Under the pieces are notes generated by a model, which had not been told where the DNA came from, did not search any database, and worked only from the letters and a program-made list of their open reading frames with translations. From assembly GCF_902168435.1 (NCBI RefSeq), contig NZ_LR656172.1, positions 124,001 to 188,000 on the forward strand: a stretch of DNA of 64,000 nucleotides, given 5' to 3'. Both the position numbers and the translations under genes were made by a program. This DNA comes from Bacillus marasmi. GTDB taxonomy: Bacteria > Bacillota > Bacilli > Bacillales > Cytobacillaceae. Below are positions 18,814-47,989 of the stretch, one piece after another; positions within the stretch are counted from its first letter, which is position 1, and each line of letters starts with the position of its first letter.

Positions 18814-18878
18814 TGTCAGCTCCTTAACATATTGATGGTCGCAAGCACCTATGCATCCAAGATTTAGGGCTCTATGAT

Positions 18879-21774: not shown

Positions 21775-21802
21775 TATATCACAAATTAATCACAATTTTT
21801 AT

Positions 21803-21886: not shown

Positions 21887-21919
21887 ATTACAATTAGTCG
21901 AGGAGGCTTTACATTAACA

Positions 21920-22906
21920 ATGAAACCAGTAAAAATGTTCATGACTCTTTTCTCTGTTTTAGCACTATTCTTTTTAGCAGCATGTGGAGGAGCAGAAGAT
22001 AAAACCTCAGAAACACAAGATACAAAAAAGACCGAGGAAAAATCCTATACAGTTGAACACGCAATGGGTACAACCACTATCAAAGGTACTCCGAAAAAGG
22101 TTGTTATTTTATCAAATGAGGGTACTGAGGCATTGTTAGCATTAGGGGTAAAACCTGTTGGTGCAGTTCAATCGTGGTTAGGTGATCCATGGTATGACCA
22201 CATTAAAGACGACATGAAGGGCGTTGAAGTAGTTGGCGTCGAAAGTGAAGTAAATGTAGAGAAAATCGCTACTTTAAAACCTGACCTCATTATTGGGAAC
22301 AAGTTGCGTCAAGAAGCAGTTTATGACCAACTTAGCGCGATTGCACCTACCGTTTTTTCTGAAACATTAAGAGGAGATTGGAAAGACAATTTTTCGTTAT
22401 ATGCAAAAGCATTAAATCTTGAGGAAAAAGGTATCGAAGTCCTCGCCGCTTACGATAAGAAAGTGGAAGACTTGAAAGAAAAACTTGGTGATAAAGCAAA
22501 TAAAGAGGTTTCAGTTGTTCGTTTCATGGCTGGTAAATCTCGTATTTACTACACAGATTCATTTTCCGGTGTCATTTTCAATGAAATTGGTTTTAAACGT
22601 GCTGCGCAGCAAGCTGAACTATTCACTCCAGATAATAAATTAGGTAATCTTGCAATAGAGGTTGGTAAGGAAGTCATTCCTAAAATGGATGCTGACTATC
22701 TCTTCTACTTCACATATGCTCCAAACGGTGACCAACAAGCATTGAATACGGCAGAAGAGTGGACAAATGATCCACTTTGGAAAAACTTAAATGCAGTCAA
22801 AACTAGAAACGCCTTTGAGGTAAGCGATGCTATTTGGAACACTGCCGGTGGCGTTCTAGCTGCTAACCTAATGTTAGATGACCTTGAAGAAATATTAATT
22901 AAGTAA
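21920..22906 (+). CDS. yfiY: Iron-siderophore substrate-binding lipoprotein (YfiY-like)
   Basis: A 328-residue exported lipoprotein: signal peptide with lipobox LAAC (Cys at residue 22), an acidic linker, then a FecB/BtuF-type binding fold. The signatures KVVILSNEGTEALLALGVKPVGA and EVNVEKIATLKPDLIIGNKLRQE, then LSAIAPTVFSETLRGDWKDNF, resemble YfiY, the schizokinen/arthrobactin binding protein of B. subtilis. Ribosome site GGAGG is separated from the ATG by AT-rich bases. It is divergent from its cognate permease-ATPase-reductase operon, both under Fur boxes. It captures ferric hydroxamate outside the membrane and delivers it to the permease. Confidence 0.92.
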   Translation: MKPVKMFMTLFSVLALFFLAACGGAEDKTSETQDTKKTEEKSYTVEHAMGTTTIKGTPKKVVILSNEGTEALLALGVKPVGAVQSWLGDPWYDHIKDDMKGVEVVGVESEVNVEKIATLKPDLIIGNKLRQEAVYDQLSAIAPTVFSETLRGDWKDNFSLYAKALNLEEKGIEVLAAYDKKVEDLKEKLGDKANKEVSVVRFMAGKSRIYYTDSFSGVIFNEIGFKRAAQQAELFTPDNKLGNLAIEVGKEVIPKMDADYLFYFTYAPNGDQQALNTAEEWTNDPLWKNLNAVKTRNAFEVSDAIWNTAGGVLAANLMLDDLEEILIK

Positions 22907-23153: not shown

Positions 23154-23960
23154 CTAAAGTGTTACTGTTGAGCCAGTTGCTATATAGTTTAGTTTTCCGC
23201 CCAACATGTTTTTTAAGGCGTTGTACGAATCTACGCCGGTGCAATGACCGGTATAGTAGTTCGACTTTGTTTTGCAAAGGTACTCACCGATTTTTTCAAC
23301 CAATGAAACGGGTAGATTATATAGATGGAATCCGCCAACGACATAGCTTGGATGTTTTTTCTCCGTTTCAATTACATGATCGATAATACTCACGATGCCA
23401 TTATGGGCGCAGCCTGTTACAATTGTGATTTTGTTATTTTCCTTAATTAATAGATTCTGTTCATGTTCAAAATGGTCATACCCAAAGAAAATACCAGATT
23501 TTCGTAATAGATTGCGATTGCTAATCGATGTTACTTTATTTCTTTTAATATTTGAAAATAATTCAAGTTCGTCATCGATACAGAAAGAATCACTTGTAAA
23601 AATAATGCTAGGGTTGGACATTAATTCTTTTTCTAAGCCGATATAAACCTTCTTACCATGCTCGCGTAATGAAAAATGGGCGCCAAATGCTTTATGGTTT
23701 ACATAAATATTTGCCTTATGATTGATTTCTAAAAACGCCTTAAGCCCGCCACCATGATCAGAGTGACCGTGTGAAATAATAACGGTATCGACTTCGGTGA
23801 GGTCAATTCCTAGTTTCGCAGCATTCTCAATAAATAACGGACTAGCTCCTAAGTCAAACAGAAGCTTGTGCTTGCTCGTCTCTATATAAAGGCTTAATCC
23901 GTGTTCACTTTTGAAATCATCTGAGATGGAAGTGTTTTCTATCAGAGTTTTTATGATCAT
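23154..23960 (-). CDS. MBL-fold metallohydrolase
   Basis: A 268-residue protein of the metallo-beta-lactamase fold. It has the metal motif SHGHSDHGGG (HxHxDH, about residues 63-72), the later ligands CAHNG and GGFHLY, and a C-terminal TGHCTG. This arrangement matches the subfamily annotated as dihydropteridine/DHPS-like MBL hydrolases found beside NifX-like and MinD-ferredoxin genes. It overlaps the upstream ATPase gene by 44 bases and is last in a five-gene operon. Its substrate is unknown; the context suggests metal-cofactor or redox-centre metabolism. Confidence 0.88.
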   Translation of the reverse strand: MIIKTLIENTSISDDFKSEHGLSLYIETSKHKLLFDLGASPLFIENAAKLGIDLTEVDTVIISHGHSDHGGGLKAFLEINHKANIYVNHKAFGAHFSLREHGKKVYIGLEKELMSNPSIIFTSDSFCIDDELELFSNIKRNKVTSISNRNLLRKSGIFFGYDHFEHEQNLLIKENNKITIVTGCAHNGIVSIIDHVIETEKKHPSYVVGGFHLYNLPVSLVEKIGEYLCKTKSNYYTGHCTGVDSYNALKNMLGGKLNYIATGSTVTL

Positions 23961-24837
23961 AGTCCTGCTCTAATCCTTCTTTCATAAGCATTTTCATTAC
24001 TTTATTGAAAACTTGTTTTGTCGCCTGACCAGCGTCACAATCTATATCAACAATACTTTGACCAGCATTGACCGCTCGATTTGCCGTAATATCAAAGGGG
24101 ATTGCTCCGACAAATCGTATATTTTTAGTTTCGCAAATCAATTCGATTTCTTTAGTATTGATAACGTTTATGTCATATTTATTTACACATACAGCTACTT
24201 CTGGTTGGAAGCTAGAAGCGGTTTTGATGATTCGTTCCATATCACTAATGCCAGATAACGAAGGCTCCGCAACAATCAATACCATGTCCACACCGCTTAT
24301 GGAAGAGATGACTGGACATCCAATCCCTGGTGAGCCATCGATAATTGCCAATTTAGCTTTTGGAGCATGAGCTTCCATCTGTTTTTTAACCTCAGATACC
24401 AATAATCCCGAGTTCCCGCTGCCCATTGTTAACTGGGCTGTTGAAAAGACATCATCATCCTTGTAAAGCATTAAATCTCCTGCTTTAGCAGGTTTTAGGG
24501 AAATCGCGCCTACTGGACAAATTAGTTCACAAACACCACAGCCTTCACATGATAAACGATCAACCTCATAAAATTCATCTGCTTTTATAGCATCAAATCG
24601 GCAGTATTTTTTACAAAAACCACAATACACACATTGATTCGGATCAATTTCTGCTTTTGGCATTCCATAGAAGTTTGTCTGATTGGCAATATTTTCTTGA
24701 CTTTGTACTAAGTGTAAATTTGGAGCATCGACATCACAATCAGCGTATGCCTCAGGTTTGGCAAGCTTAATGAAGGCGCTGGCTATCGTTGTTTTTCCTG
24801 TTCCGCCTTTGCCACTAAGAATTAGTAATTGCTTCAT
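23917..24837 (-). CDS. MinD/Mrp-type ATPase with two 4Fe-4S clusters, second copy
   Basis: 306 residues from the ATG at 24837, chosen for its ribosome site AAGGAGGAGGTG. The deviant Walker A SGKGGTGKTT is at the N-terminus. Two ferredoxin motifs follow: CVYCGFCKKYC and CEGCGVCELICP. A second P-loop-family motif (IIDGSPGIGCPV) completes the ATP site. Such proteins combine a ParA/MinD ATPase with an inserted ferredoxin and are thought to load or reduce metal clusters. It is paired with a paralogue immediately upstream (overlap of 23 bases), as in operons of strict anaerobes. Confidence 0.88.
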   Translation of the reverse strand: MKQLLILSGKGGTGKTTIASAFIKLAKPEAYADCDVDAPNLHLVQSQENIANQTNFYGMPKAEIDPNQCVYCGFCKKYCRFDAIKADEFYEVDRLSCEGCGVCELICPVGAISLKPAKAGDLMLYKDDDVFSTAQLTMGSGNSGLLVSEVKKQMEAHAPKAKLAIIDGSPGIGCPVISSISGVDMVLIVAEPSLSGISDMERIIKTASSFQPEVAVCVNKYDINVINTKEIELICETKNIRFVGAIPFDITANRAVNAGQSIVDIDCDAGQATKQVFNKVMKMLMKEGLEQDYDHKNSDRKHFHLR

Positions 24838-25678
24838 TTTGCACCTCCTCCTTGACTTTATAAAGGAGAGATACAAATAAATCATGATACAGGTTGTCTT
24901 CTCTAGCAGCGATTAGTGCTTTAGAATTCATTAGAGCAAGTTTCTTGTTGAATTGAATTTTTGCTAAAATTTTCATATCATTTCTATGGCAAAATACTTC
25001 AACAGGATTATCTGTATCTAAGCATTTATTCATGACGACACCATGCGGCTTTTTGAAAAATTTTACCAAATCATATACGATATTTAGATTATGAACGCCA
25101 AACAATGTGGGCTCAGCCACTAAAATACAATAATCAGCATCCCTAATACTTTCCATCACCGTACAAGCGCTGCCAGGCGGACAATCGATGACGGTGAGAC
25201 CGAGATTTGCTTCTTGAGAACTTAACATTGTTTTGATTATTGGCACACCAGATTCCTGGCCAGGCTCTAACATTCCCGTAATGACATTTACATTGTCAGA
25301 AATTCCTGTTTGGATTTCACCAATCTTTTTATCCCTTTCAGAAATCGCATTTTGCGGACAAATTAATGAGCAGCCCCCACAAGAATGACATATCTCATCA
25401 AAAACAAAGGGTTTATCGTTGACAAGAGCTAACGCATTATATTTGCAAAAATCAACACACTTTCGGCAGGCATTACACAGTTTCTCATCTACAACTGGAA
25501 CTTTAATATGAACGGGCTTCGTGTTAATTTTTGCGGGCTTAAAAAATAAATGGCCATTTGGTTCCTCAACATCGCAATCTATATAAACAGAATGTGGTTC
25601 CGCTGATGCTGCTGCTAAATTTACTGCAACAAAGGTTTTCCCTGTGCCACCTTTTCCACTAAGAACAGCAATCTTCAT
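24815..25678 (-). CDS. MinD/Mrp-type ATPase with two 4Fe-4S clusters, first copy
   Basis: 287 residues from the ATG at 25678, eight bases after GGAGG. Deviant Walker A SGKGGTGKTF, ferredoxin motifs CNACRKCVDFC and CHSCGGCSLICP, then VIDCPPGSACTV. It is a paralogue of the following gene with the same domain order; the pair may act as a heterodimer. It lies two bases after the NifX-like gene's stop codon. Confidence 0.88.
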   Translation of the reverse strand: MKIAVLSGKGGTGKTFVAVNLAAASAEPHSVYIDCDVEEPNGHLFFKPAKINTKPVHIKVPVVDEKLCNACRKCVDFCKYNALALVNDKPFVFDEICHSCGGCSLICPQNAISERDKKIGEIQTGISDNVNVITGMLEPGQESGVPIIKTMLSSQEANLGLTVIDCPPGSACTVMESIRDADYCILVAEPTLFGVHNLNIVYDLVKFFKKPHGVVMNKCLDTDNPVEVFCHRNDMKILAKIQFNKKLALMNSKALIAAREDNLYHDLFVSLLYKVKEEVQNEAITNS

Positions 25679-25679
25679 A

Positions 25680-26045
25680 TTATTTGCCTCCATGATGGGA
25701 ACCTTTGTGAAATTGCTCCATTACCGTTAACCTTCCATTGAATAAAGCATCAATATTTTCCTTAATTGAACCAGTATTGGTTTCGTATATTTCCATTTGT
25801 GCCGCTTTTAATACTTTAGCCGCATTCTCTCCGCAGCGCGGGGCAAGTAGCACATCGATATGGTGGTCAATTAAAAATTGTGCGGCTTTAATCCCTGCAC
25901 CACCATGGCTTTTGACTGAAGGGTTATCAATAAAAAAGCCATCATTATGATCTGAGTTAAAAATAAAAAAATGTGGTGTGCGTGCAAACGAACTTCCGAC
26001 TTCAGACTCAACATGATTAACGTCGGCTGGAACTGCAATTTTCAT
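25680..26045 (-). CDS. NifX/NifB-type iron-molybdenum cofactor binding family protein
   Basis: A 121-residue protein of the dinitrogenase iron-molybdenum cofactor biosynthesis family: MKIAVPADVNHVESEVGSSF, then FFIFNSDHNDGFFIDNP, then HGGAGIKAAQFLIDHHIDVLLAPRCGENA. The single-domain form binds metal clusters in nif and related systems, but no nitrogenase genes are present here. The C-terminus carries HKGSHHGG, possibly metal-binding. It sits between the DUF134 regulator and the paired ATPases, an arrangement seen mainly in anaerobes. Confidence 0.88.
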   Translation of the reverse strand: MKIAVPADVNHVESEVGSSFARTPHFFIFNSDHNDGFFIDNPSVKSHGGAGIKAAQFLIDHHIDVLLAPRCGENAAKVLKAAQMEIYETNTGSIKENIDALFNGRLTVMEQFHKGSHHGGK

Positions 26046-26079
26046 TAGGAATCCTCCTCGATTTAACAGGTTGTTGTTT

Positions 26080-26718
26080 CTATTTCATTTCCTGATTTTG
26101 TGAAGGGCTTTGTTCGACATCAGTTTCTTTCTCGCAAGAATGGCGTTTGCATTGGTGTTCGGGCATGTGAACGTCCTCAGGTGAATGGCGTTTGCATTGG
26201 TGCTCGACTACATGGCTCTCATCAGTAGAATGGCGTTTGCAATGTTGTTCAATCACTTGACCGTTCTCAAAAGAATGGCGTTTGCAATGTTTTTCGAGCA
26301 CTTGACCGTCCTCAAAAGAATGAGGTTTGCAATGGTGTTCAACCATGTGACCGTCCTCAAAAGATTGAGGTTTGCACATTTGCTTACGCCTACGTTCGTC
26401 ACAGCCACACGGTTTATTAAATCCTTTACAAAGCCTAAAATCGCCACCTTTAATTGTTAAAAGCTTGCCATTCACCAAAGATTCTGCAAGTTTTCTCCGT
26501 GCATCTGTATAAATACGCTGGACGGTTGTTCGTGCAATATACATTTGATCTGCGCATTCTTCCTGAGTAAAGCCTTCAAGGTCAATTAAACGAATCGTTT
26601 CAAACTCTTCAACGGTCATAATCACGAAATCATTACCTTGATTACTACCATTAAGCGGTCCGAATCGATCATTCTCGGGTAAACAGCAAACCCGTCTCCA
26701 TTTCCTAGGTCTTGGCAA
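26080..26718 (-). CDS. DUF134 helix-turn-helix regulator with Cys/His repeat tail
   Basis: A 212-residue protein. Residues 1-110 are a DUF134 DNA-binding domain: PRPRKWRRVCCLPENDRFGP, then MTVEEFETIRLIDLEGFTQEE and ADQMYIARTTVQRIYTDARRK. Typical members end soon after; here about 90 more residues contain six copies of a 14-15-residue unit (HCKPHSFEDGQVLEK-like), each with one Cys and two or three His. These would form a multi-site metal-binding tail, suggesting a metal-sensing regulator (inference). First gene of the NifX-ATPase-ATPase-MBL operon. Two GACATATGTCC palindromes in its promoter suggest self-regulation. Confidence 0.85.
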   Translation of the reverse strand: MPRPRKWRRVCCLPENDRFGPLNGSNQGNDFVIMTVEEFETIRLIDLEGFTQEECADQMYIARTTVQRIYTDARRKLAESLVNGKLLTIKGGDFRLCKGFNKPCGCDERRRKQMCKPQSFEDGHMVEHHCKPHSFEDGQVLEKHCKRHSFENGQVIEQHCKRHSTDESHVVEHQCKRHSPEDVHMPEHQCKRHSCEKETDVEQSPSQNQEMK

Positions 26719-33663: not shown

Positions 33664-33815
33664 GGTGCCTGTCACCGCCCGAATTTTGTCGAATGACATA
33701 AAGGCTCCAATTGCGTTAACATCCGCTAGTGGAGCCTTTTTGTGAGCAAAACTTCCTATTGTTTCGAGTGGGTGATGGAAAAATTCAGGAGGCCAAGAGA
33801 GCTCCCCCTTGTTTT
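33664..33815. repeat. GGTGCCTGTCACC copy plus composite element type 3, copy 3
   Basis: Copy at 33664-33693. The composite at 33696-33815 has the hairpin AAAGGCTCC ... TCCGCTAGTGGAGCCTTTTT (left arm partly degenerate), a GTGAGCAAAACTTC spacer and a decayed repeat (AGCTCCCCCTTGTTT). The FNR box of the next gene begins at its right edge. Confidence 0.75.
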
Positions 33816-33856
33816 TGATTTATATCAATTTCATTTATGGTGGTTTTCTTTATGAT
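33815..33856 (+). promoter_or_regulatory. FNR-type box and -10 in class II spacing
   Basis: A perfect FNR half-site pair TTGAT-TTAT-ATCAA (33815-33828) is followed by -10 TATGAT (33851-33856). With the start point about seven bases after the -10, the box centre falls near -41.5, the position used for direct activation by FNR. No good -35 is present, as expected for an activator-dependent promoter. Confidence 0.75.
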
Positions 33857-33949: not shown

Positions 33950-34669
33950 ATGGATTGTAATGGAACACATCATCATTTTCGATGTCTTCATCATGGTGAT
34001 GATTCTTCTTCCAAATTGTGTGTATCTCTAGTCCCGATATTTAATCACTTGGAAGAGGAGCAAATGAAAGAAGTTATGGCGACGGCAAAATCTATTTCCT
34101 ATAGTAGAGGCGAAAGTGTATACCATGCTGGAAATCAATCTGCCTCATTATATATTGTGAACAAGGGGAAAATTAAGATTTACAGATTGTCCGAGGCTGG
34201 AAAAGAACAGATTGTGCGCATTTTAAACCCTGGCGATTTCACAGGAGAACTAGCTTTATTTAATGAAACCATCCATGAATCCTATGCGGAAGCAATCGAG
34301 GAGACAGAGGTTTGTCGGATTGAAAGGACGGACTTACATGAATTTCTGTTAAAATATCCATCGATATCCTTAAAATTTTTGGCGGAGTTTTCGAATCGCC
34401 TCGAAATTGCAGAAAAACAGGCAACCCGGTTTGCGACGGAGAAAGTGGAAACACGGATTGCCCAATTTTTAGCTGAATGCATCGATTCAGACAGCCAAAC
34501 AAAAGAGTTTATGTTACCGATGAGTAGAAAGCATCTAGCATCGTATTTAGGAACCTCACCGGAGACGTTGAGTCGAAAGCTCTATGAATTCGAGGAAATC
34601 GGGTATATCAAACAAAAGAAACATAAAAAAATAGAGATATTAGACTTAGAAGGCTTATTATCTTTATAA
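33950..34669 (+). CDS. Crp/Fnr-family transcription regulator
   Basis: A 239-residue regulator: cyclic-nucleotide-binding-like beta barrel (about 30-140, GNQSASLYIVNKGKIKIYRLSEAG and PGDFTGELALF), dimer helix, then a helix-turn-helix (MSRKHLASYLGTSPETLSRKLYEFEEIGYI). The recognition helix E-T-x-S-R is that of FNR proteins, matching the TTGAT-N4-ATCAA box upstream. The N-terminus is Cys/His-rich (MDCNGTHHHFRCLHHGDD) plus Cys in KLCVS, so an Fe-S or haem sensor is possible. It differs from B. subtilis Fnr, whose cluster ligands are C-terminal. Ribosome site AGGAGGTG. It may respond to oxygen or NO; self-activation is inferred. Confidence 0.88.
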   Translation: MDCNGTHHHFRCLHHGDDSSSKLCVSLVPIFNHLEEEQMKEVMATAKSISYSRGESVYHAGNQSASLYIVNKGKIKIYRLSEAGKEQIVRILNPGDFTGELALFNETIHESYAEAIEETEVCRIERTDLHEFLLKYPSISLKFLAEFSNRLEIAEKQATRFATEKVETRIAQFLAECIDSDSQTKEFMLPMSRKHLASYLGTSPETLSRKLYEFEEIGYIKQKKHKKIEILDLEGLLSL

Positions 34670-34754
34670 AAATAATCATGATATTTCGGGTTATTTTTAG
34701 AAAGCAGCACCACCAATATCGTTTTCCGTAACCCCAACGACAAAAAATCCATTG

Positions 34755-34797
34755 AAGCATCTGTTGTGTAAAAGCAGCAGATGCTTTTTTATTTTAT
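34755..34797 (+). terminator. Rho-independent terminator after the Crp/Fnr gene
   Basis: AAGCATCTG pairs with CAGATGCTTTTTT (interior GTTGTGTAAAAGCAG), followed by a T-rich run. It lies about 90 bases after the stop codon. Confidence 0.7.
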
Positions 34798-35077: not shown

Positions 35078-35135
35078 AACATCCAAATTTTACACAGCTT
35101 ATTTTATAAAAATAGAAAAACTTGACCACGGTCAA

Positions 35136-35164
35136 TTAATAATGAGAATCATTATCATTATAAT
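35136..35164 (+). promoter_or_regulatory. Fur-box promoter of the mevalonate-kinase operon
   Basis: TTAATA (35136-35141), 17 bases, TATAAT (35159-35164). Within the spacer, AATAATGAGAATCATTATC (35138-35156) matches the 19-base Fur consensus at 17 positions. Fur bound here would block polymerase, so the operon should be on when iron is scarce. A TTGACC at 35122 is an alternative -35. Confidence 0.8.
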
Positions 35165-35233
35165 TAACCTATAGCAAAACCACAGCCCCAATAAATGTGA
35201 TTTTCCTCAAACGCTTAAAAGGAGTTGATGCTG

Positions 35234-35527
35234 TTGGTAGGTTCCAAGATAAAGAGTGTTCCGATTTCGCAAATCCAAGAATCCAAACCGGATCAAAGCA
35301 AACCAGTTCATATTGAGGTTTGGGAAGATCTTGTGAAAATAAAAAGCTTAATTCTATCGCTATTCATCTGCAGCACGACTTCATTAGCGGGATATTTTAT
35401 TGCGCCAAATCAAGCGCCAAAGCCGTTGTTTTTTGGCTTAATCGGTGCCCTAATCGGTTTTATTTTTTGCAGTATGATCATCAAACCAAAACGATTGATT
35501 CATGAAGTCACAAGGGAGGATTCATAA
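35234..35527 (+). CDS. Small two-helix membrane protein of the mevalonate operon
   Basis: About 97 residues. The ribosome site AAAAGGAG ends at 35224; the TTG at 35234 has the best spacing, with in-frame ATG (35228) and TTG (35225) too close. A hydrophilic N-terminal half (SVPISQIQESKPDQSKPVHIEVWEDL) is followed by two membrane helices (LILSLFICSTTSLAGYFI and PLFFGLIGALIGFIFCSMI) and a basic end. No family recognised. It lies two bases before a TctA-like permease gene, so it could take the role of the small TctB subunit, although it is shorter than usual. Confidence 0.7.
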   Translation: MVGSKIKSVPISQIQESKPDQSKPVHIEVWEDLVKIKSLILSLFICSTTSLAGYFIAPNQAPKPLFFGLIGALIGFIFCSMIIKPKRLIHEVTREDS

Positions 35528-35529
35528 GA

Positions 35530-36885
35530 GTGGATACAATCGTTATTTTTCAAATGATTGCGGCGGCGCTGATTGCTGCAGCAGCTTACACTGTGATTGG
35601 AATCGCACCTGGTACCGATGAAACGGCAACCATCGCCCCAGTCACATTGGCGCTTGTGCTATCAGGATTGCACCCTGCTGTGATTTTGTCCTTCTTTATC
35701 GCAGCGATTGTCGCCAGCAAATTAACCGATTCGATTCCCGTTGCTTTAGCGGGGATACCGGGAGGCGTTATGGCAACGCCGATGGTCGAGCACGCGATGA
35801 TTTTAAAGAAGCATGGGATGTCCGATGTAAGCATTCGCAAGATGGCGTCCGGCTCGGCGATTGGAACAATCGTTGCTGTACCAGTGAGCTTGTTATTGGC
35901 GAGCGCCTTAATTCCCGTCGCTGATGTGATCAAAGAATACGCTAATCCATTGTTTCTATTTGGGGCAATTTTTCTAGCACTTATGTCAAAAAATAGATGG
36001 CTGGCCCTGACGACGATCATACCGTTTGCGCTCTTAATACAAGGCCTGCGTCATTTGTACTGGGGAGTTGGAGCTGTCGCCGAAGGGACGAATGTGTTTG
36101 TATCGTTTTTCTTATGGATTACCATCGGTCCAGTCATTTTGAAATTATTTGAACTTTTAAATAAGGAAAAAAGAGATCAGTTAGAACGATTTGATGTGAA
36201 AACGATTCATCTAAATAAAACAACACACACAAATGGAATCCCGAATCCGTTCAATATTTTAACCAAACAGGAGCTGGGGATGAGTGCACTTGCTTCACTC
36301 ATTGGCTCTGTGACCTTTATTATGAGTCCGGTGGGGATGACGATTTTCTTAGGGGAGGTTTTTTCGAGCAAAGTCAAAGATCCGGTCAAGAAAGCAAGCT
36401 TGTCCATCGCTTGTATGGAGGCATTAGCGAATGCGACGTATATCGCTGGAACGTTAATCCCGTTAATTGCTTTAGGAATCCCGCTGTCACCAATGGCGAT
36501 AGGTCCAGCGAATGCCCTCTTTAATGCTCCGCCGGTCTTTACTTTGGAGCATAATATGCATCATATTCTCACAAACGCAGGCTTTGTTTGGGCTACGCTC
36601 ATCGGCGCCGTGATTGCCTTAACAATGACGTATTTTGTAACAATCAAGTACTCCCAGCAAATATGTGCATTTGTATTTAGACGAATTCCCCATGAGGCAA
36701 TCCTAGGCTTGTTCTTTAGTTTAGTGCTATTGCTTTCTTATATGGATGCCGGCTGGATTAATGTTGGCGGGGTTCTGTTAATTGGACTTGTCGCTGGCGT
36801 GCTTCATCGTTTGGGGGTAAATTACGGCGTTCAATTCATGGTTCTTTATTCTGCACCTTGGATTATTGAAAAATTAGTCGGTTAA
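35530..36885 (+). CDS. TctA-like (tripartite tricarboxylate transporter type) permease
   Basis: A 451-residue protein with about ten to twelve membrane helices and a GTG start (GGGAGG about 11 bases upstream). The TctA hallmarks are present in altered form: YTVIGIAPGTDETATIAP (usual pattern GxxPGxGxxxxxAxL), SKLTDSIPVALAGIPGGVMATPM and the internal repeat GIPLSPMAIGPANALFNAPP. It is a secondary transporter of carboxylates in the family; no periplasmic-type TctC protein is encoded here. Position directly before three mevalonate enzymes under a Fur box makes mevalonate (or a related short hydroxy acid) an attractive substrate. That is inference. Confidence 0.82.
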   Translation: MDTIVIFQMIAAALIAAAAYTVIGIAPGTDETATIAPVTLALVLSGLHPAVILSFFIAAIVASKLTDSIPVALAGIPGGVMATPMVEHAMILKKHGMSDVSIRKMASGSAIGTIVAVPVSLLLASALIPVADVIKEYANPLFLFGAIFLALMSKNRWLALTTIIPFALLIQGLRHLYWGVGAVAEGTNVFVSFFLWITIGPVILKLFELLNKEKRDQLERFDVKTIHLNKTTHTNGIPNPFNILTKQELGMSALASLIGSVTFIMSPVGMTIFLGEVFSSKVKDPVKKASLSIACMEALANATYIAGTLIPLIALGIPLSPMAIGPANALFNAPPVFTLEHNMHHILTNAGFVWATLIGAVIALTMTYFVTIKYSQQICAFVFRRIPHEAILGLFFSLVLLLSYMDAGWINVGGVLLIGLVAGVLHRLGVNYGVQFMVLYSAPWIIEKLVG

Positions 36886-36926
36886 TGTGGGACAAATCAT
36901 TCCGTTTAAGTAGGAGATGTAAGGTA

Positions 36927-37934
36927 ATGATCCAGTTAGCTCAAACATGCTCAATGGGCAGCGCGCACGGGAAGTTGATTTTGTTGGGGGAGCATTCAGT
37001 TGTCTATGGTATGCCGGCGATTGCTATTCCGTTCACATCGCTTAAAGTGTGGGCAACGGTAGAGGTGATACGAGGCCCATTAACGTTTAGTTGTGATTAT
37101 TTTCAGGGACCGCTAGCCGATGTCTCGATGAAAATGCGTGGCATCGCAACTTGCATCACTGAAGCGTTAACCATGCTTAACCAACAACAATCTGGTTTAT
37201 TGATTACGATTCATTCCTCAATTCCAATTGGGCGAGGCCTGGGTTCAAGTGCTGCGATTGCGCTGGCGATTGTCAAAAGCTTATTTGCTTTTTATAAAAT
37301 AAATCTTGATCATCATACGCTCATGTCGCTTGTCCATATCGCTGAAACATACGCGCATGGGAACCCTAGTGGCATCGATATGTATACAGCTTCAAGTGCT
37401 AAACCTCTTTGGTTTCAAAAAGGAAAGCCGATGGAGGCGCTGCATATAGCTCGTCCACTCTATATAGTAGTTGCCGACACTGGAAGGTTTGGAGATACCC
37501 ATTTGGCCGTATCAAATGTTAAGAAGGCTTTAATAAACCATCCGAAAAAAACAAAAGAATCCTTGGCGCAGTTGGAAATGCTTACGCATGAGGTGAGGTT
37601 TGCCTTGGCACAGGGTGAGCGAAAGCGCTTAGGAAGATTATTAGATTTTGCTCAAGCGGAGCTGACGGCAATCGGTGTAAGTGATGCTGGCATTAATCAT
37701 CTGATTGACGCGGCTCGAAATGCTGGTGCACTTGGCGCAAAGCTTACTGGAGGAGGTCTCGGTGGTTGTGTGCTGGCGCTTGCCGAGAGCTCAACGCACG
37801 CAAAGGCGCTGGCAAATAGGTTGCTGACTGCCGGGGCGAGTAATACTTGGTATTTTAAATTAGATGCAGGAAATGAAGGTGAGATCATTGATGAAGGCAA
37901 CCGCACGAGCTTATACAAATATTGCACTCATTAA
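36927..37934 (+). CDS. mvaK1: Mevalonate kinase
   Basis: About 335 residues of the GHMP kinase family: phosphorylates mevalonate to 5-phosphomevalonate with ATP. Motifs: AHGKLILLGEHSVVYG (about 13-28), the ATP loop PIGRGLGSSAAIA (100-112), HGNPSGIDMYT with the catalytic Asp (about 151), and GAKLTGGGLGGCV near the end. The ATG at 36927 has GGAG ten bases upstream. An in-frame ATG at 36885 overlaps the previous stop (TAATG) and could allow coupled initiation; the extra residues (WDKSFRLSRRCKV) are not family-like. First of three mevalonate genes in the order kinase, decarboxylase, phosphokinase found in Gram-positive cocci. Confidence 0.93.
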   Translation: MIQLAQTCSMGSAHGKLILLGEHSVVYGMPAIAIPFTSLKVWATVEVIRGPLTFSCDYFQGPLADVSMKMRGIATCITEALTMLNQQQSGLLITIHSSIPIGRGLGSSAAIALAIVKSLFAFYKINLDHHTLMSLVHIAETYAHGNPSGIDMYTASSAKPLWFQKGKPMEALHIARPLYIVVADTGRFGDTHLAVSNVKKALINHPKKTKESLAQLEMLTHEVRFALAQGERKRLGRLLDFAQAELTAIGVSDAGINHLIDAARNAGALGAKLTGGGLGGCVLALAESSTHAKALANRLLTAGASNTWYFKLDAGNEGEIIDEGNRTSLYKYCTH

Positions 37935-38907
37935 GTATTGGGGGAAGCGGGATGAATCTTTATTTTTACCAATGAACAGCAGCCTTTCGATTACGCTTGA
38001 TAAGTTCTATACAACGACGACTGTTGAATTCTGTTCATGTCTCTCCGTGGACGTGTTTGTCTTAAATAATCAACTTGCAAGCGAACATGATTTAGCTAAA
38101 ATTACCCGGTTTCTGGACCGAATTAGACAACTGTCAGGAAAAGGATATCGTGCCGTCGTGAATTCGACCAACAATGTGCCAACAGCGGCCGGCTTTGCTT
38201 CTTCGGCATCTGGCTTTGCGGCGTTAACAGCGGCGGCTTCAAAGGCGCTTGGACTTAACTTAGAAGGTGAAAACTTGTCAAAATTGGCCCGCCAAGGTTC
38301 TGGTTCTGCTTGTCGCTCCATCCATGGTGGATTCGTAGAATGGCAAAAAGGCGAAAAGCCAGATGGAACAGATTCATTTGCGAAGCCGATTATTAGTGAA
38401 AAGGATTGGGATTTGAGCATTCTATCCGTGCAACTTACATCCAAACCAAAAGCGATCACCAGTCGAGACGGAATGAAGCGGACCGTCATGACCTCCTCGT
38501 TTTATTCGGGGTGGCTGACGACCGTTGAACAAGATTTTCAAACAGCCAAGGAAGCGATTAAGGACCGAGATTTCGAAAAGCTTGGCACGGTCGCCGAGGC
38601 CAACGCCCTGAAAATGCATGCGACGACACTAGCTGCCAACCCGCCGTTTTCATATTGGACTAGCGCGACATTTGAAGTCATTCAAGAAGTGTATACGCTG
38701 CGGTCTATGGGGATTCAAGCCTACTTTACGATTGATGCTGGACCGAATGTGAAGATTCTTTGCCAGCCAAAGGATGAGCAGGCTGTGTTTGACGCCCTGA
38801 TCAAAGTACCAATTGTTCATGAGGTTCATATATGCCATCCTGGCCAAGGGGTCGAGTACTTATCTAATGTAAAACATTCAAAAACTTGTAGGGGTGAAAC
38901 GCAATGA
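37891..38907 (+). CDS. mvaD: Diphosphomevalonate decarboxylase
   Basis: About 338 residues from the ATG at 37891 (ribosome site GAAGGTGAG). It overlaps mvaK1 by 44 bases. Signature start RAYTNIALIKYWGKRDESL and LPMNSSLSITLD, phosphate loop GFASSASGFAAL, basic Ser/Arg segment SACRSIHGGFVEW, and the catalytic Asp in TIDAGPNVK. It converts mevalonate diphosphate to isopentenyl diphosphate with ATP, releasing CO2. It needs no Fe-S centre. Confidence 0.95.
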   Translation: MKATARAYTNIALIKYWGKRDESLFLPMNSSLSITLDKFYTTTTVEFCSCLSVDVFVLNNQLASEHDLAKITRFLDRIRQLSGKGYRAVVNSTNNVPTAAGFASSASGFAALTAAASKALGLNLEGENLSKLARQGSGSACRSIHGGFVEWQKGEKPDGTDSFAKPIISEKDWDLSILSVQLTSKPKAITSRDGMKRTVMTSSFYSGWLTTVEQDFQTAKEAIKDRDFEKLGTVAEANALKMHATTLAANPPFSYWTSATFEVIQEVYTLRSMGIQAYFTIDAGPNVKILCQPKDEQAVFDALIKVPIVHEVHICHPGQGVEYLSNVKHSKTCRGETQ

Positions 38908-40052
38908 CATATTCAAGTTATCGGGTAAAAGTTCCAGGTAAACTATTAATTGCTGGTGAATACTCTGTCCTTGAACCTAAGCAACAGGCAATTGTCGCTG
39001 CTGTCAATCGCTATCTCTCCGCTTATATCGAGCCAAGTAAGCAGAATCAGGTTTCGCTGCCGCAGTTGGGACTTCATTCTGTTTCTTGGAAAATCAAGAA
39101 TCGGGTTGTTCAGTTTAACCGAGGGGACGCCCGTTTGAAATATATTCAAAACGCCATCGAGGTGGCTCATCAATACTTAAAGGAACTTGGAATTTCAGTT
39201 CGGCCGTTTCATTTAACGATTAAAAGTGACCTGAATGACCCAACTACCGGGAAGAAATACGGATTAGGCTCGAGCGCGGCGGTGACAGTAGCAGTTATTT
39301 CAGCGATGCTCGTTTTATATTGTCCTAGAAACTCACAACCGACACTCGAACAAATCTTTAAGCTAGCAGCTCTTGCCCATTTACGGACGCAAAAAAATGG
39401 CTCGGGAGTAGATATTGCTGCCTCAACATACGGCGGTTGGATTTGTTACACCGCTTATCAACCTAAATGGGTTTTAGCACAAGCGCTAGAAGTCGATAAA
39501 CTAAGTGATTTAATTAATAAAACTTGGCCTGGTTTATCAATTAACCCGTTACAGCCACCAGCCCAATTAAGCCTATGCGTTGGTTGGACAGCAGAAGCGG
39601 CGTCTACTGCTCCGTTAATAAACGAGTTTAAAAAGTTTCAAGTTTGGAATAAAGCTGCATATGCTCGCTTTCTAGCAGAAAGCACGCAGGCCGTGACCCG
39701 CTTGATTCATAGTTTCAAAGAAGGAGATGGTCTTGGAGCAATTTCAAGCTTAACGCAAAATCGTAAAGCGTTGTCGATTGTTAGCGAGGAAGCCGGAATA
39801 TCAATTGAAACGCCAAAACTAAAAGCTTTATGCCAGATGGCTGAGGTGACTGGCAGCGGGAAATCGTCTGGTGCTGGCGCTGGTGATTGCGGCATAGCAT
39901 TTGTGCTGGGTGAAGAAGACCAAGTTGACGAGCTCCACCGCTTATGGAAAACTGCCGGAATCGTACCCTTGAAAATAACAGTATCACCAGAAGGAGCAAC
40001 AGCAACCGAATACAACTGCGAAGCCTCACTCAAACAATACCTAAGCTCCTAA
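38904..40052 (+). CDS. mvaK2: Phosphomevalonate kinase
   Basis: A 382-residue GHMP kinase: KVPGKLLIAGEYSVLEP (about 9-25), GKKYGLGSSAAVTVAV (about 117-132), SGVDIAASTYGGWI with the probable catalytic Asp, and SGKSSGAGAGDCGIAF near the end. It phosphorylates phosphomevalonate to mevalonate diphosphate. Its ATG overlaps the mvaD stop by four bases (ATGA), so the pathway genes are tightly coupled. With mvaK1 and mvaD it completes the route from mevalonate to isopentenyl diphosphate; HMG-CoA synthase and reductase are not in the window. Confidence 0.94.
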   Translation: MTYSSYRVKVPGKLLIAGEYSVLEPKQQAIVAAVNRYLSAYIEPSKQNQVSLPQLGLHSVSWKIKNRVVQFNRGDARLKYIQNAIEVAHQYLKELGISVRPFHLTIKSDLNDPTTGKKYGLGSSAAVTVAVISAMLVLYCPRNSQPTLEQIFKLAALAHLRTQKNGSGVDIAASTYGGWICYTAYQPKWVLAQALEVDKLSDLINKTWPGLSINPLQPPAQLSLCVGWTAEAASTAPLINEFKKFQVWNKAAYARFLAESTQAVTRLIHSFKEGDGLGAISSLTQNRKALSIVSEEAGISIETPKLKALCQMAEVTGSGKSSGAGAGDCGIAFVLGEEDQVDELHRLWKTAGIVPLKITVSPEGATATEYNCEASLKQYLSS

Positions 40053-40069
40053 AACGGCGCCACCAAAAC

Positions 40070-40137
40070 GGTGCCTGTCACCACCCGAATTTTGTCGAAT
40101 CAAACTCGGTGCCTGTCACCGCCCGAATTTTGTCGAA
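40070..40137 (+). repeat. Two GGTGCCTGTCACC-family copies between mvaK2 and the flavodoxin gene
   Basis: Copies at 40070-40099 and 40108-40137, period 38. They fill nearly all the gap. No promoter or Fur box is visible here, so the flavodoxin is probably read through from the mevalonate operon. Confidence 0.88.
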
Positions 40138-40168
40138 AATAAAAGATTTGTAGGGAGTGAGAAAATGA

Positions 40169-40624
40169 ATGAATATCATCATTATTTATACCAGTATGAC
40201 CGGTACTACGGAACAAATGGCCAATACCATTGCCGCGGAATTCATGAAGGCTGGCAAGAACGTGGTTATAAAAGATTCAATCGAAGCCCAAGCGGCGGAA
40301 TTGATTTCTTACGACATGATCCTAATCGGCAGTTATACGTGGGGAGATGGAGAGTTACCTGACGAGTTGGTCGATTTTTATGATGAATTGCGTAGTACAG
40401 ATTTAACTGGAAAAATTGTTGCGATATTTGGTGCTGGCGACTCAACCTATCCTCACTTTGCCACGGCAGTTGATATTCTGGAGGAAACGGCAAAAGGACA
40501 AGGCGGTCGAATCCTCATCGACGGTTTAAAAACGGATCGGGAATCAGAAGACATTCTCACAAGCAGTTGTCGCCTGTATAGTAAAAAACTAATCGAGGCG
40601 CTGGAGCTTGCGTGGATACATTGA
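40169..40624 (+). CDS. Flavodoxin (short chain)
   Basis: A 151-residue FMN electron carrier. FMN phosphate loop YTSMTGTTEQMA (about 7-18), the FMN-stacking loop GSYTWGDGELPDE, and the third loop FGAGDSTYPHF. In bacteria flavodoxins replace ferredoxin when iron is short, and related Bacillus genes (ykuN/ykuP) are Fur-controlled. An out-of-frame ATG at 40165 sits closer to the ribosome site (AGGGAGTGAG); the true start at 40169 gives the family N-terminus MNIIIIYTS. It is downstream of the Fur-box mevalonate operon, consistent with an iron-sparing role. Confidence 0.92.
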   Translation: MNIIIIYTSMTGTTEQMANTIAAEFMKAGKNVVIKDSIEAQAAELISYDMILIGSYTWGDGELPDELVDFYDELRSTDLTGKIVAIFGAGDSTYPHFATAVDILEETAKGQGGRILIDGLKTDRESEDILTSSCRLYSKKLIEALELAWIH

Positions 40625-40794: not shown

Positions 40795-40926
40795 TTTATA
40801 TAAAGGGAGAGCAGCATCCTCAATATGAAGGTGCTGCTTTCAAGTTGTACAAGGTTTATCGAAAGCCAGGAGTATGTGTGGATGGAATTATTGAGGTGTC
40901 GAGAGAATCTCCCTTCTTGTTTCCCC
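40795..40926. repeat. Diverged composite element type 2, copy 3
   Basis: Hairpin GAGCAGCATCCTCAATATG / AAGGTGCTGCTTTC (about 40806-40842), shortened spacer (GTTGTACAAGGTTTATCG) and a decayed repeat (GAGAGAATCTCCC, TTCTTGTTTCCCC, 40896-40926). It separates the flavodoxin gene from the collagen-like gene. The 40625-41034 gap shows nothing else I can name. Confidence 0.65.
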
Positions 40927-41034
40927 ATGCTAAGGAATCTAGAATGCTTACCCAACTTCGAAGGCAAAAATTGTCCAATCATTTATCTTGATATTCCATA
41001 TTATGTAAGGTCAAATATGTTTTGGGGTGAGTTT

Positions 41035-43602
41035 ATGAACAGGGAAAATCATAACCTTAAAGGAAAGGATCAACAGGATTCTAAAGCAAAGAAACTCAAA
41101 AAAAAACTAATTAAACCAGCTTGCATAACAGGAGCAACAGGCGAGCAAGGTCCCCAAGGAATACAAGGCCCAACAGGAGCAACAGGCGAACAAGGTCCCC
41201 AAGGAATACAAGGCCCAACAGGAGCGACAGGCGAGCAAGGTCCCCAAGGAATACAAGGTCCAACAGGCCCAACAGGAGCGACAGGCGAGCAAGGTCCCCA
41301 AGGAATACAAGGTCCAACAGGCCCAACAGGAGCAACAGGCGAGCAAGGTCCCCAAGGAATACAAGGCCCAACAGGAGTAACAGGCGAGCAAGGTCCCCAA
41401 GGAATACAAGGCCCAACAGGAGCGACAGGCGAACAAGGTCCCCAAGGAATACAAGGTCCAACAGGAGCAACAGGCGAACAAGGTCCCCAAGGAATACAAG
41501 GCCCAACAGGAGCGACAGGCGAACAAGGTCCCCAAGGAATACAAGGCCCAACAGGAGCAACAGGCGAGCAAGGTCCCCAAGGAATACAAGGTCCAACAGG
41601 CCCAACAGGCGAACAAGGTCCCCAAGGAATACAAGGCCCAACAGGAGCGACAGGCGAACAAGGTCCCCAAGGAATACAAGGCCCAACAGGAGCGACAGGC
41701 GAGCAAGGTCCCCAAGGAATACAAGGCCCAACAGGAGCGACAGGCGAACAAGGTCCCCAAGGAATACAAGGCCCAACAGGAGCGACAGGCGAGCAAGGTC
41801 CCCAAGGAATACAAGGCCCAACAGGAGCAACAGGCGAACAAGGTCCCCAAGGAATACAAGGCCCAACAGGAGCGACAGGCGAACAAGGTCCCCAAGGAAT
41901 ACAAGGCCCAACAGGAGCGACAGGCGAGCAAGGTCCCCAAGGAATACAAGGTCCAACAGGAGCAACAGGCGAACAAGGTCCCCAAGGAATACAAGGTCCA
42001 ACAGGCCCAACAGGAGCGACAGGCGAACAAGGTCCCCAAGGAATACAAGGCCCAACAGGAGCGACAGGCGAGCAAGGTCCCCAAGGAATACAAGGTCCAA
42101 CAGGCCCAACAGGAGCAACAGGCGAGCAAGGTCCCCAAGGAGGAGGGGTAAGCTTATTTTCAGACCAATCAAATGATAGCGAATCGCTGCTTCCGGCTAA
42201 TACAACAATAACACTTGAACTTCCACCAATATCAACACTTGACGGAGAAAGCATTAAACTTGATGCCTTTGCAAGAATCTTTTTCGAAACCACAGATTCT
42301 ACTAATCACTCCTTGGAAATATCTATTGTATTACAAAGATTGGGTGACGCACCGACAACGCTAACCTCAGCACAAATTAATCGTAGCAGACAATTTAGCA
42401 CATCTACTATAACGAGTGATACCTATACCCCGTCACTTACCTGGATAGATAAGCCTCCATCAGGGACTCATTTTTATAAAATAGAAATTACTGCATTAAC
42501 AGCCATAAATATACTAACCTTAGATATTATTAATCGTTCATTAAATTCAGTCGCTCAGATCAGTTCTGATCCATTCAACATTTTCGTTCAGTCTGGGGCA
42601 GTAGGAGGAAATGGCACACTGAATCATCCGTTTGGAACAATTGAAGAGGGGATGAACGCAGTTGCGGATGGTGGTACTGTTCATATTTTAGAAGGAATTT
42701 ACAACATCGCTTCACAGCTTAACATTACAAAATCGATGATACTTGATGGTTCGCAAGCAATATCGATGCCACAACTCATATTTGATCCGATAGTGAATTT
42801 AGATGGTTTAGTCATTGAGTCTGACGATGTGACAATTAGCAATTTACACCTAATAAGCAACAGAACTCTGACAGGTTCAAACGCAGTTGTTAAAGTGGAA
42901 TTAAGAACACTCGCAAACCTTTATCATAATATCAATATCAGTTCGAATATCATTGAAGGCACAGTTCGTAGCGGGTACTTCTGGGCGGAAGATTTAACAA
43001 TTGAGGATAATATCTTTAATCATAATGCGACAAATTCACAAAGCCTACGGTTTCAAATGGTTAGAGGCACTACTAATATATTAAATAATACATTTAATGG
43101 TAATAGCACCAGTGTTGGAGCTGTTATATTCGAACCTAACCTTGTATCGTATACGATGTCTGGAACCATTCATATAAATGGAAATACGATGAGTAGCTTT
43201 AATCAATTCGTAAATTTCTTCGGAATCCTTGAAGGTCCAACTAGTTTATATATTGAGGGCAACAACATTAACCATGGAAGCAATTCTGGAAGTAGTATCA
43301 TTTTAACCACACGTATAGACTATAGTTTAATGAATGACCTCTTAATCCAAAATAACTATTTTGAAAATAACGACAATGAACGCCTAGCCGTTTATTTTGC
43401 TAGTGGAGGAGGAGGCACCAGTATACCATCGAACAATCAAATTCAGGTGTATTCTAATGATGCGTTTTTTCCAAATGGGTATGGTCAGCGTCCTGGCGAT
43501 ACAGCAGACCCAAATTTCCCGGTAGGATATAACAACACGGCTGGTGGATTGGGGATGACCCTAAGCGCATTCGACTTACAAGGAAACCAACTCATCATCT
43601 AG
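41035..43602 (+). CDS. Collagen-like repeat protein with beta-helix-type C-terminus
   Basis: About 855 residues from the ATG at 41035 (ribosome site GGGGTGA). After a charged N-terminus ([24 protein letters not shown]), residues about 32-365 are uninterrupted G-x-y triplets built from the 15-residue unit [15 protein letters not shown], with some GPT insertions; this forms a collagen triple helix as in exosporium filament proteins of the BclA type. The C-terminal 480 residues are a Ser/Thr-rich beta domain followed by a right-handed beta-helix-like segment ([20 protein letters not shown], then [21 protein letters not shown], then repeated ISSNIIEG / IEDNIFNHN / INGNTMSS / IEGNNINHG / IQNNYFENN coils). 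BclA proteins normally end in a TNF-like trimer domain, so this C-terminus is different. Surface or spore-coat location is inferred. Confidence 0.85.
41131..42142 (+). repeat. 45-bp tandem collagen-coding repeats
   Basis: More than twenty units coding [15 protein letters not shown], nearly identical at DNA level; some units carry an added GPT (nine bases). Several other frames are also free of stops throughout, a by-product of the repeat composition. Copy number is likely to vary between strains. Confidence 0.88.
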
Positions 43603-47524: not shown

Positions 47525-47989
47525 TCAATATAGTTTTGATTCGGAAAAGTTTTGGAATGTACCCCAAACTTCTCTCCTAGCAATCTGAGGGTAAGTAGAC
47601 ATAAAGTTCACTATAATTGGAGCTTGATCTAGATTAGGGTAGGCGTCGAATAAAAACCGATCACCGTACCGGATAGCTGTTAATGCAAGTGGTAATTCGC
47701 ACTTAAATATTTCATTACGTTTTGAAGATTCACCCGCGGTATACTCGCCTTGATCAATATATAAATAAACATGATAGGAAAAGGAATTGCCGCTTAGGTT
47801 CCATTCACCTAAAACTTCATCTCTATTAGGGTTTATTTTATTCCAGGCATAATGAGTTCCAATTGTTAAAAATAGATTTCCCGTTAAATCGGAATGAGTT
47901 AATGTGTGTCGTCTTGGGATAACAGGTCCTGTTGCAGTAACACCATCCATGTATTCCACGGATAGTTTATATGGATTGAATTTGCTCAA
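47525..47989 (-). CDS. Staygreen (SGR) family protein
   Basis: A 154-residue protein matching the bacterial staygreen family: FNPYKLSVEYMDGVTATGPV, PRRHTLTHSDLTGNLFLTIG, INPNRDEVLGEW, and LPLALTAIRYGDRFLFDAYP. In plants SGR removes magnesium from chlorophyll a; bacterial relatives occur in non-photosynthetic Bacillus, where the native substrate is unknown. Single domain of usual bacterial length. Monocistronic, about 315 bases from its upstream neighbour. Confidence 0.85.
   Translation of the reverse strand: MSKFNPYKLSVEYMDGVTATGPVIPRRHTLTHSDLTGNLFLTIGTHYAWNKINPNRDEVLGEWNLSGNSFSYHVYLYIDQGEYTAGESSKRNEIFKCELPLALTAIRYGDRFLFDAYPNLDQAPIIVNFMSTYPQIARREVWGTFQNFSESKLY

Follow-up and report, generated by a model that had tools for sequence, protein, structure and literature searches.

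A predicted Fur-controlled mevalonate operon with a TctA-like permease in Bacillus marasmi: a candidate iron-responsive backup for isoprenoid synthesis

Background

Bacteria of the Bacillus type are usually taken to make their isoprenoids by the methylerythritol phosphate (MEP) route, and IspG and IspH to be steps within it that have no bypass. A stretch of 64,000 nucleotides from Bacillus marasmi (assembly GCF_902168435.1, contig NZ_LR656172.1, positions 124,001 to 188,000 of the forward strand; hereafter the window) raises the question of why such a bacterium should carry, behind a predicted Fur box, an operon for a small membrane protein, a TctA-like permease and the three enzymes that lead from mevalonate to isopentenyl diphosphate (IPP), namely MvaK1, MvaD and MvaK2. 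A first-pass annotation, made from the letters of the sequence, had proposed that the cell imports mevalonate when iron is short and converts it to IPP, thereby bypassing IspG and IspH.

We report the analysis of this operon by protein family searches, by comparison of gene order and promoters amongst its relatives and by a search of the open literature. The proposed import and conversion are supported by genome content, by synteny and by a complementarity between the permease and 3-hydroxy-3-methylglutaryl-coenzyme A (HMG-CoA) reductase. Taken whole, the interpretation of the operon as an iron-responsive, mevalonate-scavenging and Fe-S-independent backup for isoprenoid synthesis seems to us likely, with some room left for doubt.

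As far as the accessible text of the sources goes, the MEP pathway is native to Bacillus and its spore-forming relatives (PMC12654598) and Bacillus is shown as a genus with a single strategy (PMC10663253). The latter survey, in the part available, counts, amongst 4,400 species, 83 in which a full MEP route coexists with two or more mevalonate genes, and calls the mevalonate pathway present at two of four genes; by that rule genomes of the window type would count as two-pathway genomes. A yeast carrier, according to the accessible portion of a further report, had to be evolved into a mevalonate importer (PMC12405511). Amongst the papers listed by our searches of the open literature, none describes a TctA-like mevalonate importer from bacteria, a mevalonate operon under Fur or a bypass of IspG and IspH by mevalonate import, which does not prove that no such report exists. 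Coordinates below are those of the 64-kb window; G numbers denote genomes, G000 being that of the window, and L numbers denote fetched loci.

Results

The operon and the isoprenoid genes of its genome

The order of the genes, from the small membrane protein through the permease and mvaK1-mvaD-mvaK2 to a flavodoxin, is borne out by the open reading frames and by the family matches (Table 1). MvaK1, MvaD and MvaK2 exceed their equivalog cut-offs 1.6 to 2.1 fold, as expected of the lower Gram-positive mevalonate pathway, and their reading frames overlap by 44 nt (mvaK1/mvaD) and 4 nt (mvaD/mvaK2). The small membrane protein, for which a TTG at 35234 is, by eye, the better fit to the ribosome-binding site, gave no match in Pfam and NCBIfam at a threshold of 0.001; neither it nor five of its relatives matched TctB in Pfam, three of the six giving weak and unrelated matches below the cut-off. 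No TctC binding protein was found amongst the Pfam matches of the operon proteins.

The genome, G000 (4.64 Mb in 46 contigs, completeness 100, contamination 3.26), was searched for fni and, of the MEP genes, for ispG and ispH: IspG and IspH are both present, as is a single type 2 IPP isomerase (Fni) over cut-off. The first-pass annotation had drawn support for import from the absence of HMG-CoA synthase and reductase from the window, and this absence extends to the genome as a whole: the reductase probe (PF00368) gave 0 matches, the same probe being positive in 5 of 14 control genomes, and the synthase probe (PF08540), a weak one that was positive in 4 of the 14 controls, also gave 0. Judged by these probes a complete mevalonate pathway is not present; the genome has the Fe-S end of the MEP route together with the lower mevalonate route, and no visible synthesis of mevalonate.

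The permease stands in for HMG-CoA reductase

A permease search of 193 genomes of the window's family returned 20 matches: the window's own, 13 intact permeases at 74-95% identity, three at 39-41%, a fragment in G142 and two marginal matches. The order small protein, permease, mvaK1, mvaD, mvaK2 is kept, with the exception of G114, in which mvaK1 comes first; in G145 the operon is cut by a contig end and a second, permease-free mvaK1-mvaD-mvaK2 set lies on another contig. In genus g20 the type 2 isomerase gene, fni, is the sixth gene of the operon and the sole copy over cut-off, and the route to dimethylallyl diphosphate (DMAPP) is therefore closed inside the operon; fni was also found in 16 of 80 loci from the wider scan described below.

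MvaD over cut-off is present in 21 of the 193 genomes; amongst the controls of this search B. subtilis gave no MvaD match. The reductase was found in none of the 14 that have an intact permease, nor was a synthase over cut-off (0/14), and amongst the seven without the permease a reductase was found in six, split into two frames in G065, and a synthase in four. The seventh of these, G027, has mvaD, with mvaK1 and mvaK2 not found within the surrounding 10 kb. The association between permease and reductase over the 21 genomes gives a Fisher p of 1.3e-4, uncorrected for kinship. The exchange can be seen in G142, in which synthase and reductase are present and the permease is reduced to its C-terminal end. 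Across the family genomes, then, the permease stands in for HMG-CoA reductase, and the comparison of synteny and Fur boxes that had been suggested for the Bacillaceae finds both operon and box conserved.

The genomes with their own reductase are of two kinds. G135, G136, G142 and G065 carry the synthase and reductase genes at another place in the genome, where the two converge as a pair. In G067 and G068 no synthase was found and the reductase lies behind genes for an acyl-CoA dehydrogenase, an enoyl-CoA hydratase and a carboxyltransferase, with a Fur-like site upstream of the run that scores 13/14 in G067 and only 10-11 in G068. This run resembles the breakdown of leucine to HMG-CoA followed by reduction to mevalonate, a reading we offer as a lead only, because the family matches lie under their curated cut-offs (enoyl-CoA hydratase 344/363, carboxyltransferase 420/999 and acyl-CoA dehydrogenase 404/640 bits). 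On the minus strand of L089 (6788-11799) and L090 (6545-11744) an HMG-CoA reductase gene was noted in one run with genes for acyl-CoA dehydrogenase, enoyl-CoA hydratase and carboxyltransferase, a set with a leucine-to-mevalonate look, in genomes without a detected HMG-CoA synthase; L089 has a Fur-like box upstream.

The permease in wider bacteria

A wider scan of the genome collection gave 334 relatives of the permease, and the best 80 were kept. These fall into 37 loci with mvaK/D genes beside the permease (salvage-type), 14 with HMG-CoA reductase (reductase-context) and 29 with neither nearby (lone). The small protein lies directly upstream of the permease in 79 of the 80; the operons of Clostridium and Sporolactobacillus differ from the family in gene order.

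The permeases at 39-41% identity, in G021, G040 and G060, adjoin HMG-CoA reductase, in G021 also HMG-CoA lyase, and these three genomes have no MvaD over cut-off. Amongst 13 reductase-context genomes MvaD was found in five and was not found over cut-off in eight; the fourteenth locus, L151, belongs to G203, which has a lone locus too and has MvaD. A permease as close to the window's as that of L098 (75% identical) sits with a reductase in a genome without MvaD over cut-off, and on the permease tree the reductase label must have changed four times or more along well supported branches, G021 being flagged for long branches. The reductase settings that are free of MvaD may represent the breakdown of mevalonate, and since mevalonate is the compound common to these and to the IPP-making settings, their relationship counts for mevalonate as the cargo of the permease. 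A match to the 'degradative' family TIGR00532 was considered as proof of catabolism and discarded, for a reductase beside HMG-CoA synthase (L071) passes it too; absence of MvaD from the genome was used as the criterion in its place. Three catabolic permease operons (L034, L035 and L036) have upstream, by eye, a TTCAACAAAGTTGAA-type palindrome instead of a Fur box, and a cupin-XRE regulator gene lies near that of L034.

Promoter, Fur box and its distribution

The 17/19 match to a Fur box inside a TTAATA-N17-TATAAT promoter was confirmed by direct reading of the sequence: positions 35138-35156 read AATAATGAGAATCATTATC against the consensus GATAATGATAATCATTATC, and the 15-mer of the box was scored against the 7-1-7 consensus TGATAATNATTATCA. 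Only two sites of at least 13/14 occur in the whole 64 kb, the second at 21872 ahead of siderophore-uptake genes, where a first-order Markov null gives 0.05 (sites starting with T counted, as both real ones do), and the best sites in shuffled versions of the same regions average about 9-10 of 14. By eye, a G at position 2 and a C at position 14 suggest a box for Fur rather than for PerR. The promoter is the top match within 33.6-41.1 kb (10/12), and the promoter scan overall shows no excess over shuffles (16 found, 14.7 expected), for which reason we argue for the promoter from conservation only. The footprint of promoter and Fur box is kept in other species and is therefore not due to chance. 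A predicted box that overlaps a promoter and is kept between species is what would be expected of a member of the Fur regulon, and we infer that Fur would bind here and repress the operon.

A site of at least 12/14 was then scored between -400 and +60 around the operon start. It is present in 23 of 37 salvage-type loci, in none of the 14 reductase-context loci and in one of the 29 lone loci, this last (L157) lying on a contig that ends just past the permease. For IspH and the reductase, 50 genomes outside the family set were compared, made up of the 29 salvage-type genomes and those of 21 of the 29 lone loci: 24 have IspH without reductase, 23 reductase without IspH, three both and none neither. 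The Fur box accompanies IspH (17/27 with, 0/23 without; p = 1.5e-6, uncorrected), and does so when five weak sites are dropped (12/27 vs 0/23, p = 1.5e-4) or when only sites of at least 13 are admitted (10/27 with IspH, p = 9e-4). The box thus appears to follow the need for a bypass of the Fe-S enzymes. It is also found, at 14/14, before mvaK1 in G135 and G136, which have no permease and have their own synthase and reductase, and before mvaK1 in G142, in which IspH was found. The predicted iron control therefore belongs to the lower pathway and not to import alone.

A Crp/Fnr-type box, its regulator gene and nitric oxide reductase

Immediately ahead of the promoter lies an FNR-like box, centred at about -42 from the start expected from TATAAT, a position we take to be that of a class II activator of the Crp/Fnr family. 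Of 35 promoters compared, 10 have the pattern TTGA-N6-TCAA at a distance of exactly 21 nt ahead of the Fur 15-mer (the window, G013, G140, G141, G143, G007, G142, G135, G136 and L097, mostly of the window's family), against a background of 0.065 per kb, and G065 has it 15 nt ahead; in L102, L138 and L141 a CRP-type box lies 34-35 nt ahead of the Fur site. The FNR-like box at a fixed distance before a Fur box is a new observation of this study, and, being a conserved palindrome at an activator position, it is a candidate site for activation by a Crp/Fnr protein. The gene for such a protein lies upstream of the operon. Its recognition helix, PETLSRKL, contains the E..SR pattern that we assume to confer FNR-type specificity; it is the candidate activator, and the palindrome before its own gene makes autoregulation possible.

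In L021, L022, L023, L025, L037, L066 and L067 the mevalonate genes are preceded by the gene for an orthologue of this protein (70-90% identity), and a Crp/Fnr gene has this position in seven of the 18 family loci checked. Nine of the 18 have a NorB-type nitric oxide reductase gene after mvaK2 (G013, G140, G141, G007, G142, G135, G136, G067 and G068). In the wider set of 80 loci the nitric oxide reductase gene occurs in two and the Crp/Fnr gene in three, all in family genomes. The window has no such reductase gene in its operon, having lost it or never had it, and no relic of one was found in the gap at 40053..40168.

Table 1. Features of the operon and its upstream region, in window coordinates
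Feature	Position	Strand	Basis and remarks
Perfect FNR-type palindrome TTGAT-N4-ATCAA, upstream of Crp/Fnr-family gene	33815..33828	+	pattern search
Crp/Fnr-family regulator	33950..34669	+	PF00027 82.5 bits, PF13545 64.9 bits
Intrinsic terminator, 14-pair stem, crp/operon boundary	34754..34787	+	terminator scan
FNR-like box TTGACCACGGTCAA	35122..35135	+	centre about -42 from start inferred from TATAAT
Sigma-70-type promoter TTAATA-N17-TATAAT	35136..35164	+	sequence, promoter scan
Predicted Fur box	35138..35157	+	19-mer 35138-35156 17/19; 15-mer TGAGAATCATTATCA 35143-35157 13/14
Small membrane protein	35225..35527	+	open reading frame; start uncertain
TctA-like permease, proposed mevalonate importer	35530..36885	+	PF01970 99.5 bits
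mvaK1, mevalonate kinase	36927..37934	+	TIGR00549 262 bits, cut-off 163
mvaD, diphosphomevalonate decarboxylase	37891..38907	+	TIGR01240 355 bits, cut-off 171
mvaK2, phosphomevalonate kinase	38904..40052	+	TIGR01220 336 bits, cut-off 166
Gap with two GGTGCCTGTCACC repeats	40053..40168	+	site of nitric oxide reductase gene in same-genus relative G013
Short-chain flavodoxin, possibly co-transcribed	40169..40624	+	TIGR01753 134 bits

Neighbouring genes and repeats

The 13-mer GGTGCCTGTCACC occurs in 22 copies in the 64-kb window, including those at 40070 and 40108, with several close pairs. Directly after the flavodoxin, at 40825-43602, lies a collagen-like repeat protein of 925 aa. On the minus strand a Staygreen-family protein is encoded at 47525-47989 (PF12638, 187 bits), the family presumably being named from plant chlorophyll breakdown, and at 23154-26718 there is a cluster of MinD-type ATPases with ferredoxin domains, a NifX-like and a metallo-beta-lactamase-like protein, one protein of the cluster having been scanned and the others read by eye.

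A short UvrC-like nuclease, a DnaI-like ATPase and a Pfam-less protein of about 200-290 aa recur around the mevalonate and permease genes (L021 15936-17586, L026 5104-6809, L065 3404-5099, L066 1256-2092, L071 6066-7166, L161, L162 and L165). A short UvrC free of an Fe-S cluster was considered as a further iron-sparing member and rejected, because the two copies that were read retain the cysteines of the motif presumed to be the UvrC cluster site.

Discussion

The scheme that we favour would run as follows. Under normal conditions the MEP route would supply both IPP and DMAPP, its final steps depending on the [4Fe-4S] enzymes IspG and IspH. A shortage of iron would release Fur from the site that lies inside the promoter, between -35 and -10, and so allow transcription of the operon, probably with the help of a Crp/Fnr-type activator centred near -42. 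Mevalonate from the surroundings would be brought in by the permease and the small membrane protein as its partner; MvaK1, MvaK2 and MvaD would turn it into IPP with ATP and without iron, and the flavin enzyme Fni of the genome would supply DMAPP. Inward transport of mevalonate is suggested by genomic association, and the bypass of IspG and IspH would be the purpose of the operon. If this is correct, mevalonate would be a shared nutrient in microbial communities, isoprenoid supply would form part of the response to iron (and perhaps to nitric oxide, NO), dependence on the MEP route could vary with the surroundings and the permease would be a candidate bacterial mevalonate importer.

Several observations weigh against this scheme. 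The synthase probe PF08540 is weak, true synthases scoring only about 48 bits in the genome search, and one permease genome, G166, has a single synthase match, below cut-off and with internal stops. Outside the family, 23 of 29 salvage-type genomes have no reductase, and the remaining six have one elsewhere in the genome as well as the permease operon, so that the complementarity is not absolute; the genomes with a lone permease have a reductase in 20 of 21 cases tested, and the permease is no substitute there. The lone loci were examined as counter-evidence and set aside as such, since MvaD was found elsewhere in all 27 of the genomes searched (27 genomes of the 29 loci, L157 and L160 being left out); with the reductase present in 20 of 21, however, these are full-pathway organisms and so not evidence for scavenging either. 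The association of Fur box and IspH is uncorrected for phylogeny and is weak within the salvage-type class alone (17/25 vs 0/4, p = 0.02). Amongst its 17 Fur sites those of the Clostridium loci L099, L105, L108 and L111 are weak (shuffle p 0.02-0.055), as is that of L114, which lies 340 nt upstream, and the match in genus g20 is only 11-12/14. No site of at least 12/14 is found at the operon start in 14 of the 37 salvage-type loci. Six of these (L112, L116, L121, L126, L133 and L164) are in genomes with their own reductase, of which L121 and L133 have IspH too and yet no Fur box; the other eight (L103, L104, L107, L109, L113, L115, L117 and L150) score 9-11 in genomes without reductase, L113 having a 12/14 site ahead of the small gene.

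The strongest alternative concerns the signal. Nitric oxide destroys the [4Fe-4S] clusters of IspG and IspH and inactivates Fur, and the main trigger might be nitric oxide or the loss of oxygen rather than iron, the Crp/Fnr protein activating the operon, the nitric oxide reductase encoded in the same run in relatives removing NO and the Fur box serving as a second input. The FNR-like box at its fixed offset, the Crp/Fnr and NorB-type genes of the family loci and the title of the nearest relative, Bacillus sp. DNRA2, all argue in this direction. The window operon, however, has no nitric oxide reductase, and the link fades beyond the family; the promoters of g20, Sporolactobacillus, Amphibacillus and Clostridium have no TTGA-N6-TCAA (L102, L138 and L141 having the CRP-type box); the ten promoters with the FNR-like box include near-identical kin (G140/G141 and G135/G136/G142) and are not ten independent cases; and the Fur box is kept more widely. 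We consider it rather unlikely, though a serious competitor, that NO or anoxia is the main trigger. Given the Crp/Fnr-type box and the nitric oxide reductase gene of family relatives, iron is nevertheless probably not the sole trigger. Anoxia or NO probably switches the operon on besides iron shortage in the lineage of the window; because the NorB and Crp links are confined to the family, this second signal is proposed for the family only.

The permease might move another organic acid, with the lower enzymes using a source of mevalonate that was missed, or other substrates. Members of the TctA family are known for tricarboxylates, no solved structure was matched by the permease, and the literature searched, as noted above, offered no mevalonate transporter of this kind. 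Set against this are the replacement of HMG-CoA reductase by the permease within the family, its position beside the reductase where MvaD is absent and the margins by which the three enzymes clear their equivalog cut-offs; we regard a different cargo or different substrates as improbable.

The flavodoxin had been put forward as an operon partner and, alternatively, as a source of electrons for IspG and IspH, which would make its action in low iron the point of the operon. It follows mvaK2 with no plus-strand terminator and no plus-strand promoter-like site in the interval by sequence scan, and in G013 it follows the nitric oxide reductase gene. A close flavodoxin was nevertheless found in only one of the 80 wider loci (within the fetched flanks) and in two of the 18 family loci, G013 and G007, by a search for close matches that could miss a divergent one, and the G007 copy stands apart as a unit of its own behind a 14/14 Fur box. 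On synteny it was rejected as a core member, the partnership is not conserved and the supply of electrons to IspG and IspH, left unsupported, is very unlikely to be what the operon is for.

That the mevalonate derives from fungal hydroxamate siderophores taken up by the cell, through their mevalonyl or anhydromevalonyl groups, was the other source once suggested, and we consider it the most improbable of all: the window does have a FecCD-type importer, a binding protein and an FhuF-like reductase with Fur-like boxes at 21758, 21808 and 21872, but anhydromevalonate would have to be hydrated, the operon proteins include no recognisable esterase or hydratase acting on such groups (no search for one was made elsewhere, the relatives included) and the permease belongs to a family of acid permeases. 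The region of the window from 17253 to 22906 holds FhuF-like, FecCD and binding-protein genes and, by eye, a repeat array at 21083-21688.

Returning to the mevalonate-scavenging backup, a broader proposal can be made tentatively, which we think somewhat less probable than its negation: that the Bacillota possess a modular bypass of the Fe-S steps in which Fur-controlled lower genes are combined with an interchangeable source of mevalonate. The source would be a new class of TctA-like permeases importing mevalonate in genomes of the window type, synthase and reductase in G135, G136, G142 and G065, and leucine breakdown to HMG-CoA followed by the reductase in G067 and G068. In the lineage of the window the Crp/Fnr site and Fur would form an AND gate for iron shortage plus NO or anoxia, under which IspG and IspH would fail. 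The confinement of the Crp/Fnr and nitric oxide reductase links to the window's family is what lowers our estimate of this proposal.

Comparison with known systems

The Gram-positive lower mevalonate pathway of staphylococci and streptococci proceeds through MvaK1, MvaD and MvaK2, and the window encodes the same three enzymes; it differs in that its genome has no match for reductase or synthase and has IspG and IspH, and in the Fur box and permease of the operon. Listeria monocytogenes and Mycobacterium marinum, which in the accessible text of one source have both isoprenoid routes and are said to use or to encode the mevalonate pathway (PMC13001223), likewise hold the genes of both routes in one genome. 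Unlike them, the genome of the window has the lower mevalonate half and a putative importer only.

The permease shares the family of the large subunit TctA (PF01970) with the tripartite tricarboxylate transporter TctABC, although the window operon has no match to TctB or TctC and instead has a small membrane protein of no recognised family before the permease. The mevalonate catabolic operon of the Pseudomonas mevalonii type consists of HMG-CoA reductase and HMG-CoA lyase. The permease of L034, 41% identical to that of the window and likewise with the small protein first, precedes just these two genes; in contrast, the operon of the window is predicted to lead to IPP, no HMG-CoA reductase was matched in it or in its genome, and the reductase-context loci are without a Fur box.

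Fur-dependent iron-sparing responses replace iron proteins by iron-free ones, as flavodoxin does for ferredoxin. The operon of the window would belong with these in offering an iron-free replacement of Fe-S proteins, and would differ from them in that what is swapped is not one protein but a stretch of a pathway, fed by an imported intermediate.

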